Below are positions 34,975 to 46,438 of a stretch of 64,000 nucleotides of DNA, piece by piece. Made by a program: the position numbers and the translations under genes. The notes under the pieces are model-generated. The model worked only from the letters and a program-made list of their open reading frames with translations. It did not search any database and had not been told where the DNA came from. Source of the stretch: Aquimarina algicola (GTDB lineage Bacteria; Bacteroidota; Bacteroidia; Flavobacteriales; Flavobacteriaceae); contig NZ_VFWZ01000001.1 of assembly GCF_006443095.1 (NCBI RefSeq), forward strand, positions 248,001-312,000, in the 5' to 3' direction. Each line of letters starts with the position of its first letter. Position 1 is the first letter of the stretch.

Positions 34975-36090
34975 ATGAGTTTTTTTAAAAAGATATTCTC
35001 TTCAAAAGAAAAAGAATTTCAAAAGGCTGATATTTTACTTGAACAAAAATCCCCCTGTTGCCCAATAACAGCAATAGTTGAACAAGACAATCGAGTAGCA
35101 CACTTTTATTTATGGGGTCCTGAAAATTCAAATTTTGGTGTAAAATCTTGTTGGATACGTAATTTGAAAGATGCTCCCAAAGCATTAGAAATCGAATTAA
35201 TGGATAAAGGCATCCCTCCTATGCTGCCAAAGGAGTTTTGTAAATTTCAAAAAGGACAAGAAAAGCTGAATAAAAATGATTTAGATATCGTTTGGACAGA
35301 AGAAGGAGATGCAGCTGCCCTTTTAGTAAAAGATGAAATAATTGCAATCATACCCATCTGGAGTGGTCAAAACGGGTTTCATGGATATGCAAAGGATTGT
35401 TTGGGACAAGGAGACTTTGCTTGGGAACTTACAGAATCTAATGTTTTTATCGAAAGAATCCATAAGTCTAAAGAGTATTGGAACTCTTGGAATGATGAAT
35501 TAAATCCATTTCAAATTCTACAACCTTTCATTCTTGATACATACGATGAAATTTTTGGTAAGCATGATCAATATTTTGCAATTGATGGAAATGAATGGCC
35601 TCCTAAAGGACTTTACTTAAGGAAAGGAGAGTTTAAAACTATTTTTGCTACTGTAGGTGTTTCTTTATTACCGATGCCTGTAGTTGAAATGTATTCTGAA
35701 AATCGTCTTGAATCGAATCGAATTGAACTAGGAATGATTTGTGATTCGGTTTTTTCTGAAAACGATATACAGCAAATAGCAGAATGGATTAGTGGGCAAA
35801 CTACAATTCCCTGGGGTAATATTACCTTTTTGGGAGAAGGACATACTATTGGTTTTATACCATTACATTCAACAAAATATAATTCTGTACTTCTTACCAA
35901 TAGACTCGATATCCTACCAAAACCAGAGCTTGGAGATTATCGAGAATCCAAAATCAACTTTTTTTGGATGGTACCAATATCAGAAAATGAAAGAAATGAA
36001 ATTATGAAGAATGGTAGCGAAGTAATTTTGGAACGACTCAACAAGATAGGAGAAAAATTATTCTCTCTGGATCGAGAAGAAGTATTGTAA
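34975..36090 (+). CDS. Suppressor of fused (SUFU) domain protein
   Basis: 371 residues, cytoplasmic. The C-terminal half (about 185-355) fits the bacterial SUFU family: LPMPVVEMYSENRLESNRIELG, TTIPWGNITFLGEGHTIGF, and the closing FFWMVPISENERNEIMKNG. The N-terminal 180 residues (VAHFYLWGPENSNFGVKSCW region) form an additional domain I do not recognise. Bacterial SUFU proteins often act as immunity proteins in polymorphic toxin systems. No toxin gene is next to it, so its partner is unknown. It is probably cotranscribed with the desaturase-like gene upstream and the zinc-ribbon gene downstream. Confidence 0.75.
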   Translation: MSFFKKIFSSKEKEFQKADILLEQKSPCCPITAIVEQDNRVAHFYLWGPENSNFGVKSCWIRNLKDAPKALEIELMDKGIPPMLPKEFCKFQKGQEKLNKNDLDIVWTEEGDAAALLVKDEIIAIIPIWSGQNGFHGYAKDCLGQGDFAWELTESNVFIERIHKSKEYWNSWNDELNPFQILQPFILDTYDEIFGKHDQYFAIDGNEWPPKGLYLRKGEFKTIFATVGVSLLPMPVVEMYSENRLESNRIELGMICDSVFSENDIQQIAEWISGQTTIPWGNITFLGEGHTIGFIPLHSTKYNSVLLTNRLDILPKPELGDYRESKINFFWMVPISENERNEIMKNGSEVILERLNKIGEKLFSLDREEVL

Positions 36091-36812: not shown

Positions 36813-39800
36813 TTATTCTTTTATTGTCAATGTATTACCTGGAATCCAATGTTTATATTCATCTGCATAGTACTGGTATGTGCAACTTGCTGGAGCTTGA
36901 TACACTCCTGATATATCTGCTTTTAGGTCTAATGAAATAGTTTTAGATTCATTAGGACCAAAACCTCTCCAATAAAAAACAATATAGTTATTGAATATTT
37001 CGTAATAGGCTACTTCTTTTCGTTCAAGTATTTCTTTTAACTGCCATGGTTGTGGTGTTGTTCCCGAAGGGATGCCGATGATAGCCATTGGCATGCTCAA
37101 TCCGGTTTTGGATGTATTTTTTACCATTACTGTCATTCTCACATTATCTCCAACACGATAAGATGGTTTGGTAATTGTAGTTTCTAATTTAAGTTTACAT
37201 TGTTTAGATGTATCTGGTAAAGGGCTATCCCATTCAACATGCATTTCATAAGGAAATGTAATTTTAGGATTTGTAAAACGTACAGATAACTTTTGTTTTC
37301 CTTCTTTGATATAATTTTCAAGATTTTGAATCACAATTTGCCCGTTATCATTTAACTGCAATTGTTGAGTCAGTTTTTTATTATTTAAGATAAGTTCTAC
37401 TGCTTGGTTTTCTTCAATCCATTTACTTTTTTGAACTTTAGTATAATTAATAAGTGCTTTAAGCGCAGTGGCAGTAGCTTGAGTAGACCCAAAACTCCCA
37501 TTTTTTCGTTGACTTAGCAAATAATCTATTCCTTTTGTAAGTAGCTCCTCATTTTGATCTTTAGCTTTTAGCAGTGCAAGAATGGTAAATGCTGCGGTCT
37601 CTACATTTTTGGAGTTTCCATAAGATCTGGTAATCGTATGTGCTACAGGTAATTCAGCATAACCATACTGTTTTATATTTTTGGTAATTTCCTTTATCAA
37701 TGTTGCAGCCTTATTAGGTTGTTTAAAATTATAACTTGTTGCTGCTAATAATGCCATTCGGTATGTATCTTTATCTTCGAGGGCTTTGTTATAGGCTTGA
37801 TTATATTCTTTTTCTATATCCACATTTATACCAGCCTGACTAATTGCATAAACAATATAGGCATTGGCAACATCTTTTGGTGTACTTGTAAAATGACTAT
37901 ATCCTTTAGTACTTTTTTCAAAGCCTCCTTTTCCATCTCTACGACTCATTAACCATTGTACTGTCCTATCGATCATTTTTTGGTCTACTTCAGGATATAT
38001 TTCTTTCATTTCTGTAAATTCCAATACACCATATGCGGTTAAGGTTTCATGTGGAGGAGTCCCACCAAACCATTCAAATCCACCTTCTTTGGTTTCAAAA
38101 CCAATCAAGCGTTTGTACCCTTCTTTTATAAACTGAAGAGCCTTTTGCTCGATCTCGGGATTACTTTTTCCTGTTTCTTTTAAATATTGCAATATCAAGA
38201 TATTAGGATAGGTACTTGAAGAAGTTTGCTCAAAACAGCCATAAGGTCTTCTAATCAACGATTCTATACCATTCATCACATCACCAACAATATCGGTATA
38301 GATGGTGAAGTTTGCTGTTAGACTATTCTTTACAACAGCATTAACATCAAAGGTATACGATTGGTTTGTAGCACCTGAAATAGAAACCTCTGTTGGAAAA
38401 TCAGGGCTAATTAAGGCCACTTCTTTTTTTACAATATCTTGATAAGATGCACCTTTTACAGATACTGTAATCATTTTTTCTTCTGAAATTACAGTTGGTA
38501 GCACTGATACTAGTATTTTTTTTGAGCTTTTGGGTGCCAAATCAACTCCTTTTTCTATAGGGTTAATCAATTCTATACCTTTTGGCAGAACAAGGTTTAT
38601 AGAGGCTTGTATAGATTGGTTTGACTCATTTTTAATTGTTATTGGTAACAAAACAGTATCACGCAATGCCATATAATTTGGAGTTTTGACATCTATTGAT
38701 AAAAGTTTTTTGGTACTATAATCCTTTTCAGTACGCCCTACTAGTCCATTAAAGCCGATTCCCTCTGCAATAACCTTAAACGATGTAATAGCATCAGAGT
38801 TATAAAACGATAAAGAAGCTTCTCCTTTATCATCTGTTTGAACAATAGGGTTCCAGTATATGGTTTGTCTAAAATCGGTACGCTCTTGAGATATATTGGT
38901 ATTGTCATATACAGGAGCATAAAATTCCTTAGGTGTATAATTAACTAAAGATCGTTGCTTATAAATATTCTGATACGTATAATTATTAAATGTTGGGTTA
39001 TTCAATGTTTTCTTCCCCCAGTTGTTAATAAAACCTTTGTTTTTGGAGTTGATCACAATGACCCCATTGGCTCCTCTGGTACCATAGAGTGCGGTAGCAG
39101 AAGCATCTTTTAATATAGTTATAGATTCTATTCTATCAGGATCCAATTGCTGTAATGATGTTTGATTTGCGACGATCCCATCAACAACATATAAGGGTTG
39201 ATTGTTACCCGAAACACTACTGATACCTCGTATGCTGATTTGGGATGTATTTCCTACATTACCATTTGCTCTAGTAATCTCTACTCCTGTAACTCTGCCT
39301 TGTAGCATCTGAGATACTGAAGAAGCTGGTTGTATTTCTTCTGTTTTTAATATTACAATACTACTATTGGTAGCTATCTTTTGTTGTGTAGAATATGCCG
39401 CTACAATCACCTCTTCTAAGGCGGCTGCTTCACTTTCTGCCAAAGATAAAGGCGCTATTTTTCCTTTTTTAGCAATCTTCTTCTTGTTCAATGATGGTTT
39501 TATATTCTCTAAAGCTGCTATTTCTGCTTTTTTAGCAATCTTTTTCTTCAATGGTGGTTTTATATCTTCAAAACGCTCAATAACTATACTATTATCCTTA
39601 TCATCATTGATATAAGTCGTTGACTTTTTTTCTACATCATATCCTTTTTGTAATACGGTTCGGTTGATATATACTTTTTTACCATTATCTGTATAGGCAA
39701 CCAATATATATGAATTGGATTGCCCTAATTTATATGCATATTCTCCTTTATCATTAGTATCAAAAACCAATACCTTGTTTCCATTTTCATCAAATAAAAG

Positions 39801-41465
39801 CAAGTGAGCTTTTACAGGTTTGCCTTGTGCGTTTACAACAACCCCTTTATGCACTTCTTCACGTTCAGGAAGATAAGACGCATTTTCTTGAGTTATCATT
39901 TGTGTTGAGAGATAATTCCTCCATCCATGAGTAAGCATTACATAATCAAGTGCTTTTGATGCTTTAGGTTCTTTTGGATCAAAATAAAAAACCGGTTTGT
40001 GTATATTGCCTTTTAGTTCTGATGACATCAAGAAATAGGACAAGATATGGTCTTGTTTGTCGTCTGCGAGCGAAAGTAATTTATTATCCGCTACTGCTAT
40101 CGATAAATTAGCAGGTATAGGTACTCCTACTGCATCAGTGGTTTTTATATTTATGTTTACTTTCTCTCTAGTTTGATAAATTTCTTTATCAGTATTTACT
40201 TCTACTTTAAGCTGTTTATGAGTATTTAAAAAAACTAACCGTTCTGCAACAGGGGCATCTTTTGAATCAAAAATTGTAAACTGTGTAATCCCAATAGGAA
40301 AATCATGTATTGGTATCTGTATCGTGTTTTGGTCTTTATTTATTGTACGAGACCACAAGGTCTTTGTTGGAGTTGAGATTTCTAATCGTAATGAAGTGTT
40401 TAATGTAGAAAATAATTGTAGTGTTGCATTAACACTATCTACCACTGTAGAGAAACGAACTCCCTGGTCATGCACTTTTGGGAGTTTAATTTTTTGTTCT
40501 GAAGTAAATGGTGCTTTGATTTGAGCATAATATGTAGTATTTGATAAAGCAGGTAGGTCAAAACCGCCCATACCATCATGATAGCTGGTAAAATTCGCTA
40601 AAACGTTTCCTGAAGCATCTGTAATATTACCTGAAATATCTACTGGTTTGCCAAACTCATTTACAGCTTTAAAGGCTACTTGATTTGTTGTTCCTGCTAT
40701 GAGTTTTCCACTTTCGGGAAAAAACTGAAGATCTATAGTATCTAATACTACAGGTACACTACGAGAAATTGATTCTGTAGTACCATTATGAGGAAGTAAT
40801 ATAGTCAATACAACATCTATAGTAGACAAATCTTTAGGTAGTGTAAAAATTGGATTCGCTTTTCCGTTGGTATCAGTGATAGTTGTATCGGTAAATATTT
40901 TTTCTCCCTTTACAGCAACTTCATAGGTGATTTCTTGATTTGCTATAGGATTATTTTTAAGGTCTTTTGCTTCAAAATTGGCAGTAACCTCTGAGGATTT
41001 TCCATAACCTTCTCTTTCAAATTTAAGTGTTAGTAATGCCTCTGGTTTGATGATTTTCTGAATGGTTATTTTTTTCGTAAAAAAAGAGGATTCACCATAA
41101 TTATACATCCAGTTGGTGTACATTTTGAGCGTGTAGATCCCTCCTACCCAATCATATTGAGTATCAAAGTTACCATATGCATATCCATGATTGACTGCTA
41201 TTTTTAATCGTTTTACTATGGTTCCTTTGGGAGAGATAAGTTCTGCATACATAGCATCACTTAGAGTAGTTATAGTATGACTTTCATCAACAACATATGA
41301 TTTGAACCATATCGTTTCTCCCGGAAAATAAAATGGTCTATCAGTTTGAGTATAAATATCCTCGACCAACCTATGGTTTTTATCATAATTAATAAAAGAG
41401 ATAGTAATCATGCACATTACTATTACCAATAGTATTCTTTTTATTTTATGTATATATAATTGCAT
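36813..41465 (-). CDS. Alpha-2-macroglobulin family protein with internal TonB-receptor plug domain
   Basis: 1550 residues. After an N-terminal hydrophobic signal (about 8-26) come macroglobulin MG domains (about 30-530; QTDRPFYFPGETIWFKSYV is the MG2-type opening). Residues 538-605 form a carboxypeptidase-regulatory-like beta domain, 630-680 a Lys-rich linker with a tandem duplication, and 684-808 a complete SusC-type plug: LEEVIVAAYSTQQK, MLQGRVTGVEI, SQISIRGISS, QPLYVVDGI and DASATALYGTRGANGVIVIN. The A2M core resumes at 871 (WNPIVQTDDKGEASLSFY), with a thioester-type CFEQ motif at Cys1077-Gln1080 and the helical thioester domain to about 1345, then C-terminal beta domains. A2Ms trap proteases. 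The gene starts 4 bp after the barrel gene, which itself lacks a plug. Confidence 0.92.
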   Translation of the reverse strand: MQLYIHKIKRILLVIVMCMITISFINYDKNHRLVEDIYTQTDRPFYFPGETIWFKSYVVDESHTITTLSDAMYAELISPKGTIVKRLKIAVNHGYAYGNFDTQYDWVGGIYTLKMYTNWMYNYGESSFFTKKITIQKIIKPEALLTLKFEREGYGKSSEVTANFEAKDLKNNPIANQEITYEVAVKGEKIFTDTTITDTNGKANPIFTLPKDLSTIDVVLTILLPHNGTTESISRSVPVVLDTIDLQFFPESGKLIAGTTNQVAFKAVNEFGKPVDISGNITDASGNVLANFTSYHDGMGGFDLPALSNTTYYAQIKAPFTSEQKIKLPKVHDQGVRFSTVVDSVNATLQLFSTLNTSLRLEISTPTKTLWSRTINKDQNTIQIPIHDFPIGITQFTIFDSKDAPVAERLVFLNTHKQLKVEVNTDKEIYQTREKVNINIKTTDAVGVPIPANLSIAVADNKLLSLADDKQDHILSYFLMSSELKGNIHKPVFYFDPKEPKASKALDYVMLTHGWRNYLSTQMITQENASYLPEREEVHKGVVVNAQGKPVKAHLLLFDENGNKVLVFDTNDKGEYAYKLGQSNSYILVAYTDNGKKVYINRTVLQKGYDVEKKSTTYINDDKDNSIVIERFEDIKPPLKKKIAKKAEIAALENIKPSLNKKKIAKKGKIAPLSLAESEAAALEEVIVAAYSTQQKIATNSSIVILKTEEIQPASSVSQMLQGRVTGVEITRANGNVGNTSQISIRGISSVSGNNQPLYVVDGIVANQTSLQQLDPDRIESITILKDASATALYGTRGANGVIVINSKNKGFINNWGKKTLNNPTFNNYTYQNIYKQRSLVNYTPKEFYAPVYDNTNISQERTDFRQTIYWNPIVQTDDKGEASLSFYNSDAITSFKVIAEGIGFNGLVGRTEKDYSTKKLLSIDVKTPNYMALRDTVLLPITIKNESNQSIQASINLVLPKGIELINPIEKGVDLAPKSSKKILVSVLPTVISEEKMITVSVKGASYQDIVKKEVALISPDFPTEVSISGATNQSYTFDVNAVVKNSLTANFTIYTDIVGDVMNGIESLIRRPYGCFEQTSSSTYPNILILQYLKETGKSNPEIEQKALQFIKEGYKRLIGFETKEGGFEWFGGTPPHETLTAYGVLEFTEMKEIYPEVDQKMIDRTVQWLMSRRDGKGGFEKSTKGYSHFTSTPKDVANAYIVYAISQAGINVDIEKEYNQAYNKALEDKDTYRMALLAATSYNFKQPNKAATLIKEITKNIKQYGYAELPVAHTITRSYGNSKNVETAAFTILALLKAKDQNEELLTKGIDYLLSQRKNGSFGSTQATATALKALINYTKVQKSKWIEENQAVELILNNKKLTQQLQLNDNGQIVIQNLENYIKEGKQKLSVRFTNPKITFPYEMHVEWDSPLPDTSKQCKLKLETTITKPSYRVGDNVRMTVMVKNTSKTGLSMPMAIIGIPSGTTPQPWQLKEILERKEVAYYEIFNNYIVFYWRGFGPNESKTISLDLKADISGVYQAPASCTYQYYADEYKHWIPGNTLTIKE

Positions 41466-41469
41466 ATGG

Positions 41470-44334
41470 TTATAGTTTTAGTTTTAATGTTACTCCTATT
41501 TCGCTGATAATAGGGGTGTTGAAAAATTGAAGCCCTCTTGCAGATGTGTGATCAAATAGATTTCTAAAGGGTGATGCTCCATCATATTTATTATAGGTAA
41601 ATAGATTTTTACCATATATTCCTACATCAAATTCTCTGATAAAATCGTGATCCCCTTTTCTTTTGATTTGATATGAAATATCAACTGATTTTAAGTTAAT
41701 AAAGCTTCCATCTACGATTGCTTCTTCTGCGACACCTTCAAACCCGTATCTTGTAAATCTGTTTTCTGATATTGCATTTTCTGGGTTGGCAAAATCTATA
41801 ATAGTCGTGTTAGGAGTACCCTGCGTAGTTACTCCATCAAAAACAAACCCTGTAATCGCCCGTTCATTGGCAGATTGTTCAGAAGTTCCGAGATAGTTAA
41901 GTACATTTTGAGTACCATTCCAAACATCGCCTCCTTTTTGATAATCGATCAAAAAATTAAGTCGTAACTTTCTGTAATAAAAAGAATTAGAAAATCCAAT
42001 GGTAAAATCCGGTGTTGGATCTCCTATGATTTTGGATGTTGTAGCAACTAAAGGAAAACCTTGATCGTCAATAATCATATTATTCTCGCTATCTCTTGCA
42101 TAGGCAGAGCCTACAATTACTCCTGCCGATTGACCAGGAATCAAATTTTTAGAAATTGTAGAAAAACCAGCAATAGGAATACGATCTTCATCACTATAAA
42201 TTCGTTTTACCTCATTACGATACCAAGTAAAAACTAGACTCGGAGAATAAGTAAAGCCTCCATAATGATATGAAGATAGATGCAAAGAAGCTTCTAATCC
42301 ATAATTATTAATATCAGCACTATTTTGAAGTTGAAATTGGCCTTCGCTCTCTACAGGAAAGACAACTTTTTCATCAGTGTGATGATAATACAAAATACTC
42401 AAATCGATATTCTTATTATGAAATAGTTCGAAACCAATTTGAGTACTTATAGAATAACTCTTTTTTTCTTCCAATTGTAAATCATCGCTCACAAATAAAT
42501 CATCATTAGACACAAAACCTTGTATCTGTTGTGGCGTTATGTCCAGACTATTATGACTCTGATTGGCATAATACAAGGGAGTTTCATTGATTTCAAGAGC
42601 TGCACCTGCTGATATTTTAAGTCTATTGAGCCAATACATATCTAGAGCTTCTCTAAGATTAATATCAACTTGTAGATTAGGTAAAAACCATTTATCATTT
42701 TGTATTGATGATACATAAGAAGAGTTTGTAAAACTGATTTTGGTATTCCAGTCTATAATATTGTAAGCAAACATGTTAGAAAGACGTAGTGTATTTCTAT
42801 TGATTGTCTTATTATTATTACTAATTGTCTCTGGAGCATCAAATGTAAGAGGAGTAAATCCTGTTTGTTCTTGTAAACTATATTTCAAATCTTTGTTTGT
42901 ATAGTCTACTTTACTATTAAAATCTATTTCGGATTTCTTATATGTTTTAGTAAATGAAAATAATGCAGTAGCATTAAAAGTATTTGTATCAAATTCTTTA
43001 TCACTAGCAAATCCATTAGTAAATCCAGCAGTATTGGGAATGACACCAAAACGTTCTGCTCTCGTAGTATAGGTATTACTAATATTGGTATTGAGCGTTA
43101 CTACATCCGAAAATCGAAAAGTGTTTTGAACACCGGCAATAAGAGCATCTTGTGTTATTTGATTTCGGTTAAAATCTAATAACCAAAATGGATTATTAAA
43201 ATTCTGTGAACTAAAACTACGCTGCAATCCATTTTCTAAAGCTACTCCTTGCCTATTCTCAAAGCTAACAGGTGTTGCCCAATTAGTAAGTAAAACCGTA
43301 TTAAAAAAACCATTAAGATTTGGTTGATTGTCTTCTTGAGTAGTATACTTTAACGAAGCATCCCAAGTACTATTTTTTTCTGTATTAGAGAGGTTGTTAT
43401 ATCGTAATGCTACTTCATGAAATCGGTTATTTTCTTTATCAAAAATATCTCTAATTCTTTCGTCTTTATATTCTAAACCTAAATAATCTTTATCAGTAGC
43501 GACATTAAAAAATACTGTATTGATCGTTTTGAACGAAGTATCAAATATCTCATTATCATATGCAATAGAATTCGCTCCCGAACCAGAGCCGATAGGTATA
43601 AGTACACCATTTTGATCATATGGGGTATCAATAGCATTAAACTGTAAATTGCTTAATCTTGGACCGTAGGAAAAAAATACATTTGAATCTGGTCCAAAAT
43701 AGGTGTTTTGACCTTCAAAAGGTTGTCCTTGAGCAAAATTTTGTTGAAGTTTTGGTAAATTACTTTGTTTCACAAATTGAACCCCTGTAGTAGTGTTCCA
43801 CCCTACTTCGTAAAATATATCTGGTTCAAAATAGGTAAGTTGGACTTTATTTTTTTCTTTTTGTATTTCAATACTTTTAATCCTTTCATACTGTAAATAT
43901 GAGGTGTTATTTCGGTATTTATATCTGCTATTTGAGATATCAGGGATATTAAAATTATTTGCCTTTTTATTTTTTAAGGTTATAGCTTCAATGTATTTGT
44001 CACTAATGATATGGCTTACTGCTTCTTGTTTGATTTTGATTTCTTTATTATCGTCATTAAACATGTCTGAAGTAATTACTACTTCTTTGGTATCCATTCC
44101 TATAAAACTAAATACAAGCACATCTCCTACATTACAATCAATACTATAATTACCATCAAAATCTGTTTGTGTTCCCGTATTTGTTCCCTTTATCACTACG
44201 TTTACTCCGGGAAGAGGCTCACCTTCTTCATCTTCTAATACCCCTTTTAGAGTACGTTCCTGAGAGAATATAGAAGTAGAAAAAAGCAATAAGAGTAATG
44301 TAACTATATAAAAATGAAAGAAATAGTTTTTCAT
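41470..44334 (-). CDS. SusC/RagA-like outer membrane barrel lacking a plug domain
   Basis: 954 residues. Signal peptide (1-24, STSIFSQ), then a CarboxypepD-regulatory-like domain (27-103: GEPLPGVNVVIKGTNTGTQT, FDGNYSI). A normal SusC would follow with a plug of about 115-130 residues carrying LYVVDG and ALYGSRAANG motifs; here only about 60 unrelated residues (104-165) precede the barrel, which starts with the usual post-plug pattern (LPKLQQNFAQGQPFEGQ, FSYGPRL). About 20-22 strands follow to the closing ISEIGVTLKLKL. No SusD gene is adjacent. The next gene downstream encodes an A2M with the missing plug. The reading frame is intact, so this is not a frameshift artefact within the gene. Confidence 0.9.
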   Translation of the reverse strand: MKNYFFHFYIVTLLLLLFSTSIFSQERTLKGVLEDEEGEPLPGVNVVIKGTNTGTQTDFDGNYSIDCNVGDVLVFSFIGMDTKEVVITSDMFNDDNKEIKIKQEAVSHIISDKYIEAITLKNKKANNFNIPDISNSRYKYRNNTSYLQYERIKSIEIQKEKNKVQLTYFEPDIFYEVGWNTTTGVQFVKQSNLPKLQQNFAQGQPFEGQNTYFGPDSNVFFSYGPRLSNLQFNAIDTPYDQNGVLIPIGSGSGANSIAYDNEIFDTSFKTINTVFFNVATDKDYLGLEYKDERIRDIFDKENNRFHEVALRYNNLSNTEKNSTWDASLKYTTQEDNQPNLNGFFNTVLLTNWATPVSFENRQGVALENGLQRSFSSQNFNNPFWLLDFNRNQITQDALIAGVQNTFRFSDVVTLNTNISNTYTTRAERFGVIPNTAGFTNGFASDKEFDTNTFNATALFSFTKTYKKSEIDFNSKVDYTNKDLKYSLQEQTGFTPLTFDAPETISNNNKTINRNTLRLSNMFAYNIIDWNTKISFTNSSYVSSIQNDKWFLPNLQVDINLREALDMYWLNRLKISAGAALEINETPLYYANQSHNSLDITPQQIQGFVSNDDLFVSDDLQLEEKKSYSISTQIGFELFHNKNIDLSILYYHHTDEKVVFPVESEGQFQLQNSADINNYGLEASLHLSSYHYGGFTYSPSLVFTWYRNEVKRIYSDEDRIPIAGFSTISKNLIPGQSAGVIVGSAYARDSENNMIIDDQGFPLVATTSKIIGDPTPDFTIGFSNSFYYRKLRLNFLIDYQKGGDVWNGTQNVLNYLGTSEQSANERAITGFVFDGVTTQGTPNTTIIDFANPENAISENRFTRYGFEGVAEEAIVDGSFINLKSVDISYQIKRKGDHDFIREFDVGIYGKNLFTYNKYDGASPFRNLFDHTSARGLQFFNTPIISEIGVTLKLKL

Positions 44335-44386: not shown

Positions 44387-44596
44387 ACTTAAAGTGAGTG
44401 AAGTTGTCTTTTGGGTGAGTAAAGTTGTTTTTGAATGATACCATAGAAATTCTCCTTATGTTCATATAACACAATATTATCTCATTAAATCTTAGTCAGA
44501 TCTTTTCTTAAAATTTAATTAAATACTTCAATGCTACGCTTCATTTTTAGTTACTTTAAGCTTTTAGAAATAATCATCAATCAAAATCAAAACATT

Positions 44597-46438
44597 ATGA
44601 AAAAAACCATTTTATCCATTGCGATAGCTTCATTTTTGATTTCGTGTACACAGAAAACAAAAGAATCAACACCTTTATCGCCCAAAGAACCTGGCCCAGT
44701 TAAATTAGTAGAGACCAATCTTATACAACCTGTTTATTTTGAAGGAGACTCAACATGGACAATAGAAGAACGTATGAAACACTATGGTGTTCCCGGTGTG
44801 AGTATTGCTGTTATAAAAGATTATAAAATTGACTGGATAAAAAGCTATGGTGTTATGGATAAAGATACTAAAGCTCCTGTTACTGATCAAACTCTTTTTC
44901 AAGCTGGATCAATTAGTAAACCTGTAGCAGCTTACGGAGCATTAGCACTTGTACAACAACAAAAAATAGATCCAGATACAGATATCAATACCTATCTAAA
45001 ATCATGGAAACTACCTGATAATACATTTACTGAAAGTAAAAAAGTTACCTTAAAACACTTGGTTAGCCATACAGGAGGGTTGACAGTACACGGTTTTTTA
45101 GGATATAGTCCTGATCTTACTGTACCAACTTTGATACAGGTTCTAAATGGAACTCCTCCTGCTAATTCTGATGCAATTGTTGTTGATAAAATGCCAGGAG
45201 AAAGCTTTCGCTATTCTGGAGGAGGGTATACTGTAATGCAACAAATGATGATTGATATAGAAGATAAACCTTTTCCTGAGTTAATGAACAATCATGTTCT
45301 CCAACCATTGGCTATGAATAATAGTACATTTAATCAACCTTTATTAGATGAACAATTGCAAGCAGCTGCAACAGGCTATTTACCTGATGGTTCTATGACC
45401 AAAGGAAAGAGGCATACATATCCTGAGATGGCAGCCGCGGGGCTATGGACAACTGCAGAGGATTTGGCAAAATTTGCCACTAATTTGCAACAAACACTTA
45501 AGGGAACTAGTGAAAAAGTATTGTCTAAAGCGATGACAACGCAAATGCTTACTCCTTATATAGAAGATTTTGTAGGTCTTGGTATATTTCTAAATACATA
45601 CAAAGATGAGATCTATTTTGGCCATGGTGGTTGGGATGAAGGGTTTTCTAGTGAACTCATAGCGCACAAAGACAAAGGATATGGTGTTGTAGTACTTACC
45701 AATTCTAATCACCCTAAATTTATCTCAGAACTTATTCGATCTGTTGCCTTGAGTTATCATTGGGATAGTTATGTTCCTTCATATAAAAAAATGGGATTAG
45801 ATTCGACAAAACTTGCAGAAGTTATAGGTCGTTATCGTATCAATGGTAATAGAGTTGCTCAAATATCCAAAAAAGATAATCGACTTTATAAAAAATTAAC
45901 TGGAGATGCATCTATAGAATTATTTCGAATATCAGATAGCACTTATATCAGTAGAGATCGAGAAAACCCAATTCAGTTTAAGGTAAATCCAGAAAATAAT
46001 CAAATGAATCTATTATTATTGGATAGAAATGGAGAAAAGATTGTTGGTGCTTTTCCTAAAATTGGCGACGAAAAAAAATTACCAATCGAACTTGTAGAAG
46101 ATGGAGATTTTGAAGCTGGACTCAATGCATATTCGACATTATTAAAAAATAATCCTAGAGACCTTACAGTTGCCGAGAATAGTCTAAATCGACTTGCTTA
46201 TGAACTTGCTTTTAACTTAAACAAAATTCAAATGGCGCATGATGTTCTTAAAATCAATACAATTTTATATCCTAATAGCTTTAATGTATATGATAGTTAT
46301 GGTGAAGTATGTATGCTAATGGAGAAATTTGATCTAGCTCTAGAAAACTATAAAAAATCATTGGAGCTTAATCCAGAAAATACTAATGCCATTAGTAAAA
46401 TAAAAGAAATAGAGCAAAAAATAAAAGAACAAGTTTAA
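44597..46438 (+). CDS. Serine hydrolase (beta-lactamase/PBP family) lipoprotein with TPR tail
   Basis: 613 residues from the ATG at 44597, which gives a clean lipoprotein signal (MKKTILSIAIASFLISC, Cys17); an ATG 66 bp upstream adds a leader that spoils it. The catalytic Ser105-x-x-Lys108 (GSISKPVAA), Tyr206 in RYSGGGY and the HGGWDEGF motif mark a class-C beta-lactamase-like hydrolase (peptidase S12). C-terminal residues about 500-613 contain TPR repeats (YDSYGEVCMLMEKFDLALEN YKK-type). It probably acts on peptides or peptidoglycan in the periplasm. It is divergent from the barrel-A2M operon and 25 bp upstream of the LamG gene. Confidence 0.88.
   Translation: MKKTILSIAIASFLISCTQKTKESTPLSPKEPGPVKLVETNLIQPVYFEGDSTWTIEERMKHYGVPGVSIAVIKDYKIDWIKSYGVMDKDTKAPVTDQTLFQAGSISKPVAAYGALALVQQQKIDPDTDINTYLKSWKLPDNTFTESKKVTLKHLVSHTGGLTVHGFLGYSPDLTVPTLIQVLNGTPPANSDAIVVDKMPGESFRYSGGGYTVMQQMMIDIEDKPFPELMNNHVLQPLAMNNSTFNQPLLDEQLQAAATGYLPDGSMTKGKRHTYPEMAAAGLWTTAEDLAKFATNLQQTLKGTSEKVLSKAMTTQMLTPYIEDFVGLGIFLNTYKDEIYFGHGGWDEGFSSELIAHKDKGYGVVVLTNSNHPKFISELIRSVALSYHWDSYVPSYKKMGLDSTKLAEVIGRYRINGNRVAQISKKDNRLYKKLTGDASIELFRISDSTYISRDRENPIQFKVNPENNQMNLLLLDRNGEKIVGAFPKIGDEKKLPIELVEDGDFEAGLNAYSTLLKNNPRDLTVAENSLNRLAYELAFNLNKIQMAHDVLKINTILYPNSFNVYDSYGEVCMLMEKFDLALENYKKSLELNPENTNAISKIKEIEQKIKEQV

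Follow-up and report, generated by a model that had tools for sequence, protein, structure and literature searches.

A SusC fold divided between a plug-less barrel and a plug-bearing alpha-2-macroglobulin in Aquimarina algicola and other Bacteroidota

The defining feature of TonB-dependent transporters is a plug that sits inside their own barrel. In SusC both ends of the plug lie on the periplasmic side, while SusD is extracellular. Plug and barrel of FhuA that are made apart can reportedly form a working transporter, as Braun et al. are said to have found in 2003. There the split was engineered. Here we describe a natural split in a 64,000-nucleotide stretch of the Aquimarina algicola genome (contig NZ_VFWZ01000001.1, positions 248,001 to 312,000; hereafter the window). 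One gene encodes a SusC-like barrel without a plug, and the next gene, 4 bp downstream, encodes an alpha-2-macroglobulin (A2M) family protein of 1550 residues, a putative thioester-type protease trap, with a complete SusC-type plug embedded in it. Both open reading frames (ORFs) lie where the original prediction from the sequence had placed them. We find that they represent a two-gene system conserved in several families of Bacteroidota. The pair is probably a split SusC functionally joined to a protease trap, and with it a new variant of TonB-dependent transporter. A paper characterising this complementary pairing was not found in the literature searched, outside which lie preprints and most subscription papers.

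Three described systems are close to this locus. With the SusC/RagA transporters BT2264, BT1763 and RagA the gene pair as a whole shares the barrel fold, the CarboxypepD_reg-like extension and a plug with a Ton-box-like motif. In contrast to them, plug and motif are located on a second protein, a SusD-like ORF is near the pair in only 1 of 80 loci, and each protein alone scores below the family cut-off. With the type I bacterial A2Ms (ECAM/YfhM) our A2M shares the MG2 domain, PF00207, the thioester-containing domain (TED) and the CxEQ thioester motif, here C-F-E-Q, which is invariant among 68 aligned A2Ms. It differs from ECAM/YfhM by the plug next to the putative bait position. It also differs in the lipid anchor and the Pbp1C neighbour of the ECAM type: a lipobox-like pattern occurs in 3 of 111 A2Ms, and Pbp1C is absent from the four flanking ORFs of the window. 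Because the lipobox-like pattern is so rare, the plug is the only visible membrane link of the A2M. The third system is the SprA translocon of type IX secretion, a large outer-membrane barrel that is closed by a separately made plug (PMC9251779). SprA has 36 strands and exports proteins, whereas our barrel has 22 long strands by our own count, finds its best structural matches among SusC chains and is paired with a plug of the TonB-receptor type. We take the SprA Plug protein and the A2M plug to be unrelated.

The claim that the parts of one SusC are redistributed over two genes holds, and the fold is cut cleanly between them. The SusC model TIGR04056 is divided, with A2M residues 670-890 covering model positions 66-298 and the best stretch of the barrel protein, residues 254-953, covering positions 272-980. 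The 27 positions common to both proteins are at the far end of the A2M match, past the plug. The two scores are 168.8 and 167.5 bits, compared to a curated cut-off of 368.25. In a sequence comparison with solved chains, A2M residues 676-809 match residues 16-168 of BT2264 (5fq6_B). Residues 173-954 of the AlphaFold model of the barrel protein match residues 170-984 of the same chain. The pieces of both proteins fall side by side on one solved SusC, and plugging in trans is therefore favoured.

The barrel protein begins with the predicted regulatory-like domain, which is the N-terminal extension of SusC, and it has a SusC-fold barrel but no plug in the same chain. Pfam detects no Plug domain in it, even with E values up to 1 allowed. 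The model has pLDDT below 50 at residues 95-111 and 120-132, with much of the segment 95-165 of low confidence, and strand 1 starts at residue 174, so that no plug fold is visible before strand 1. Some relatives also lack the N-terminal domain and have only about 60-75 residues from the signal peptide to strand 1 by our count. Of the two proteins Pfam Plug matches the A2M alone (residues 698-802 of 1550, E 2.4e-18), and the motifs LEEVIVAAY, LYVVDG and ALYGTRGANG were located in it as described before. The regulatory-like domain that had been proposed ahead of this plug is less firm. Residues 540-600 do match it, but below the family cut-off; in two plug-lacking A2Ms the domain is over cut-off.

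At 36 positions that are at least 80% uniform in SusC plugs, the A2M plugs carry the SusC residue in 79% on average. R746, G747, L758, G795 and G801 reach a printed value of 1.00, and T807, K808 and G810, the last positions ahead of strand 1, are looser. With a strict pattern the Ton-box-like motif is found in 89 of 112 A2Ms and 17 of 21 SusCs, compared to 1 of 106 barrel proteins, which thus lack the Ton box that SusC/RagA transporters carry ahead of the plug. A relaxed pattern finds the motif at the plug edge in 111 of 112 A2Ms. The motif has moved together with the plug to the A2M. For BT1763, mutants of the Ton-box region grow as poorly as a SusD deletion, and the plug is able to exit the barrel in vitro (PMC7782687).

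The pairing is real and old, and we see no exception among full-length plug-bearing A2Ms. A barrel orthologue is present in 11 of 199 genomes of the host family, the window genome counted, and a plug-bearing A2M adjoins the barrel in all 10 relatives, in one case broken up over contig ends. At the level of the order, 25 of 395 genomes have a strong barrel match of plug-less length, with a weaker match in one further genome (G866). All 21 order loci examined, 20 of them new plus G866, have an adjacent plug-bearing A2M. The barrel-first total is 31 of 31. The next-best barrels (G283, G010 and G620) contain a plug and have a SusD-like gene, for G283 a SusD by Pfam. A further candidate for a short barrel, G835, was rejected because it is an ordinary SusC that is broken, still carries part of a plug and has a SusD-like gene.

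For the A2M-first survey, genome contigs were scanned with two patterns N-terminal to the plug, and the best 80 of 175 relatives were kept. They were ranked by similarity to the full-length query, which includes the plug, and the presence of the plug in all 80 is thus partly selection. The barrel had no part in the ranking. Among these best 80 loci, the gene directly upstream on the same strand encodes a plug-less barrel in 79, and in the remaining one the A2M starts 68 bp from a contig end (L151). The hosts include Aquimarina, Winogradskyella, Kordia, Leeuwenhoekiella, Chitinophaga, Niastella, Chryseolinea and Labilibacter. Locus L156 places the pair in the marine strain Leeuwenhoekiella blandensis MED217. 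Pooling all loci, the adjacent barrel is found in 110 of 111, none of the 110 relatives shows a plug match in the barrel protein, and the spacing is 2-6 bp in 81 of the 111. The collections overlap in genomes, so 111 loci do not equal 111 genomes; 96 pairs are left at 95% A2M identity. The pair is widespread, occurring in several Bacteroidota families, yet in a minority of genomes, and no relatives were found in viral contigs. Since 110 of 111 loci keep the arrangement and the other is cut by a contig end, chance neighbours or a gene-model artefact can practically be dismissed.

The stated absence of SusD is borne out by Pfam in the four flanking ORFs of the window. Among relatives, the single SusD-like ORF in 80 loci was detected by BLAST with four SusD-like queries in flanks of up to 6 kb. 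No neighbours are widely conserved around the pair in these relatives.

In 295 genomes of the class, many full-length A2Ms were found whose alignment leaves out the plug span. In 40 such loci, five of which have less than 3 kb of upstream sequence, we observe neither a plug match (0/40) nor an adjacent SusC barrel (0/40); one control locus (L271) contains an ORF of 336 aa that matches the barrel weakly, at 33 bits. The A2M of genome G324 resembles these plug-lacking controls. This plug-less protein of 1568 aa (L086) carries a Ton-box-like motif, QEVIV, just before the place of the plug in its relatives, which may reflect plug loss or chance. In the A2M tree, 55 plug-bearing and 41 plug-lacking rows split on one branch. 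The plug-less barrels form one clade in a tree with 23 SusCs picked as nearest matches. From these trees, the likeliest history is one old event through which an A2M gained a plug and one barrel ended up without one. In a plug tree built on few columns, most A2M plugs fall apart from the plugs of the nearest SusCs of the barrel, and the A2M plug may derive from another SusC.

We consider it probable, though well short of certain, that the pair works as a split SusC, in which the barrel stands alone and the A2M plug closes it in trans and holds the thioester trap at the outer membrane. The barrel would be made alone, while plug and Ton box would be built into a secreted A2M, just N-terminal to the bait position. 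This position is suggested by alignment: A2M residue 877 aligns with ECAM residue 938, which is within the ECAM bait region that includes 923-942 (PMC4498604), and the plug (684-808) and its linkers would therefore lie just ahead of it. After export of the A2M, the plug would dock in the barrel from the periplasmic side, close the pore and tether the A2M. The outcome would be a thioester protease trap under a TonB-addressable outer-membrane gate. A model of A2M residues 415-1045 (mean pLDDT 70.7, pTM 0.46) is uninformative on the plug, because its best 50 PDB matches are A2M and complement chains.

In A2Ms, bait cleavage leads to collapse and exposure of the thioester; the human protein is triggered when the cut bait retracts from a channel (PMC9352918). 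Loss or cutting of the plug segment could fire the trap. With the plug just before the bait position, one segment could serve as pore door and trap trigger at once. Were an intruder to cut the plug or push it out, the tether that keeps the A2M cocked would break and the thioester would capture the intruder; interchangeable plugs in one barrel could report whether the door is occupied. We regard this baited trap-door as a speculative extension that is rather unlikely to be correct in full.

Table 1. Features of the gene pair, with positions in the window and the basis of each assignment.
Feature	Residues	Position	Strand	Basis
A2M family protein with plug, 1550 aa		36813..41465	-	ORF and Pfam
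MG2 domain	36-118	41112..41360	-	Pfam, over cut-off
Regulatory-like domain of the A2M	540-600	39666..39848	-	E 0.018, below family cut-off
Variable pre-plug linker	611-682	39420..39635	-	pLDDT <50 from 613 onward
Ton-box-like motif EEVIV	684-688	39402..39416	-	compared with BT1763 82-DEVVVTG-88 (PMC7782687)
Complete SusC-type plug	684-808	39042..39416	-	Pfam, 5fq6_B match and residue conservation
Post-plug linker	809-867	38865..39041	-	
A2M domain PF00207	868-958	38592..38864	-	Pfam, over cut-off
TED	1054-1341	37443..38306	-	Pfam, over cut-off
Thioester motif C-F-E-Q	1077-1080	38226..38237	-	sequence and A2M alignment
Spacer between barrel gene and A2M gene, 4 bp		41466..41469	-	ORF coordinates
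Plug-less SusC-like barrel protein, 954 aa		41470..44334	-	ORF
CarboxypepD_reg-like N-terminal domain	31-105	44020..44244	-	Pfam, E 6.7e-16
Segment at the expected place of a plug	106-171	43822..44019	-	model partly of low confidence; no plug match
Barrel, 22 long strands (own count)	172-954	41473..43821	-	model and structure match

Near the pair in the window, the divergent gene at 44531-46438 encodes a serine beta-lactamase-like hydrolase with TPR repeats; in relatives this gene does not belong to the most frequent neighbours of the pair. The ORF at 34975-36090 encodes a SUFU-domain protein.

Plugs are also found on other proteins beside such barrels. In a second family of the order, plug-VWA or plug-YfbK relatives are located upstream of the barrel in 20 of 20 loci examined (L085:2360-5206 and L215-L233), some of them showing the YfbK part only or being cut by the stretch fetched. 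Several combine a plug and a Ton-box-like motif with an anti-sigma-like N-terminus and a membrane helix that was identified by eye. In L085, a gene for an ECF-type sigma factor with sigma-70 regions 2 and 4 by Pfam precedes the anti-sigma-like plug proteins. A scan of four VWA proteins found a C-terminal type IX sorting domain in two. In L215 and L232 the plug is recognised by our own profile only and lacks confirmation by Pfam, and we do not count it. The presence of two different plugs next to one barrel points to an exchange of plugs or to sensing, and these loci may hold interchangeable plugs. Identity between the A2M plug and the upstream plug of the same locus is above the mean for other loci in 6 of 8 cases; the margins are small, and we make no use of this for concerted evolution. 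Directly upstream of the plug-less barrel in another relative (G157), L046:7623-8093 encodes a 156-aa protein with two half-plug repeats.

Several observations weigh against closure of the barrel by the A2M plug. Since each tree traces the pairing to a single event, the counts, though strong evidence of linkage, are not mutually independent. The expected rule that plug-bearing A2Ms and plug-less barrels always occur together holds in both surveys of full-length proteins and fails for half-A2Ms. Similar to the A2M of the pair, these proteins of about 800-905 aa consist of an N-terminal A2M half followed by a plug. They end in only the start of PF00207 and, unlike the pair, have no TED; in 18 loci (L087-L104) a plug match is present in 13 and an adjacent plug-less barrel in none. 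In ten half-A2M genomes, the plug being verified in seven, the barrel matches listed are in frames of at least 984 aa, the exceptions being fragments of 340 aa and 642 aa. An A2M-borne plug can therefore serve without a plug-less barrel. In addition, conservation of lumen-facing positions in the periplasmic half is 0.398 in the plug-less clade and 0.528 in SusC at equal sample size, with mean identities of 0.34 and 0.30 for the two sets and a SusC sample of 23 rows. The other three position classes differ less (0.477/0.521, 0.508/0.547 and 0.450/0.458). The plug-contact zone thus looks relaxed, as would fit plug loss in cis, and this is evidence against a tight contact of the canonical kind, unless plug and barrel diversify in step. 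Coevolution does not help docking either. In an analysis of 96 non-redundant pairs, with an effective number of 65, the top ranks at one setting go to windows within the plug and next to it. However, coupling of the plug columns to A2M domains is likewise higher, the ratio of plug to TED survives within-clade permutation, with both falling about threefold or more, and there is no lumen-facing preference. The strongest region pair between the proteins joins the pre-strand-1 segment of the barrel protein with the post-plug linker of the A2M (3.51, from few and very variable columns), which would fit docking. As the signal is non-specific, we do not use coevolution as support.

These points, namely the relaxed lumen, the lack of specific coevolution and the plugs on half-A2Ms, VWA/YfbK proteins and the 156-aa protein, would fit a plug that stays outside the barrel as a periplasmic interaction module, perhaps for contact with TonB, with the barrel closed by residues 104-171 or by the A2M body. 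We judge this unlikely, though it is the most serious competitor to closure in trans, as it leaves unexplained the fixed pairing, the absence of the barrel beside plug-lacking A2Ms and the complementarity of the two proteins. Self-closure is also disfavoured by the largely low-confidence segment 95-165 and by the short stretch before strand 1 in relatives without the N-terminal domain. A dedicated plug-less barrel beside one large cargo could alternatively be a port for export or display, through or beside which the A2M reaches the surface with the plug as address tag, and SprA sets a precedent in Bacteroidota for export via a large barrel whose Plug is a protein of its own (PMC9251779). A SusC barrel of 22 strands is far below the 36 of SprA, and the A2M has no type IX sorting domain by Pfam. 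Both ends of a SusC plug being periplasmic argues further against this port, which we hold to be improbable. Least plausible among the functional alternatives, and very improbable in our view, is a nutrient importer with the A2M in the place of SusD, for example for uptake of peptides from trapped proteases. The SusC-related barrel and the Ton-box-like motif kept on the plug would agree with import, but a SusD-like ORF is near the pair in only 1 of 80 loci, as described, widely conserved neighbours are missing, and SusD is extracellular whereas the plug implies the periplasmic side.

With closure in trans as the favoured reading, these Bacteroidota offer a natural lineage in which plug and barrel have long been separate. 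This would be a clean system to study the role of the plug, its entry and exit, and the target of TonB pulling. Bacterial A2Ms would gain a defined place at the outer membrane.
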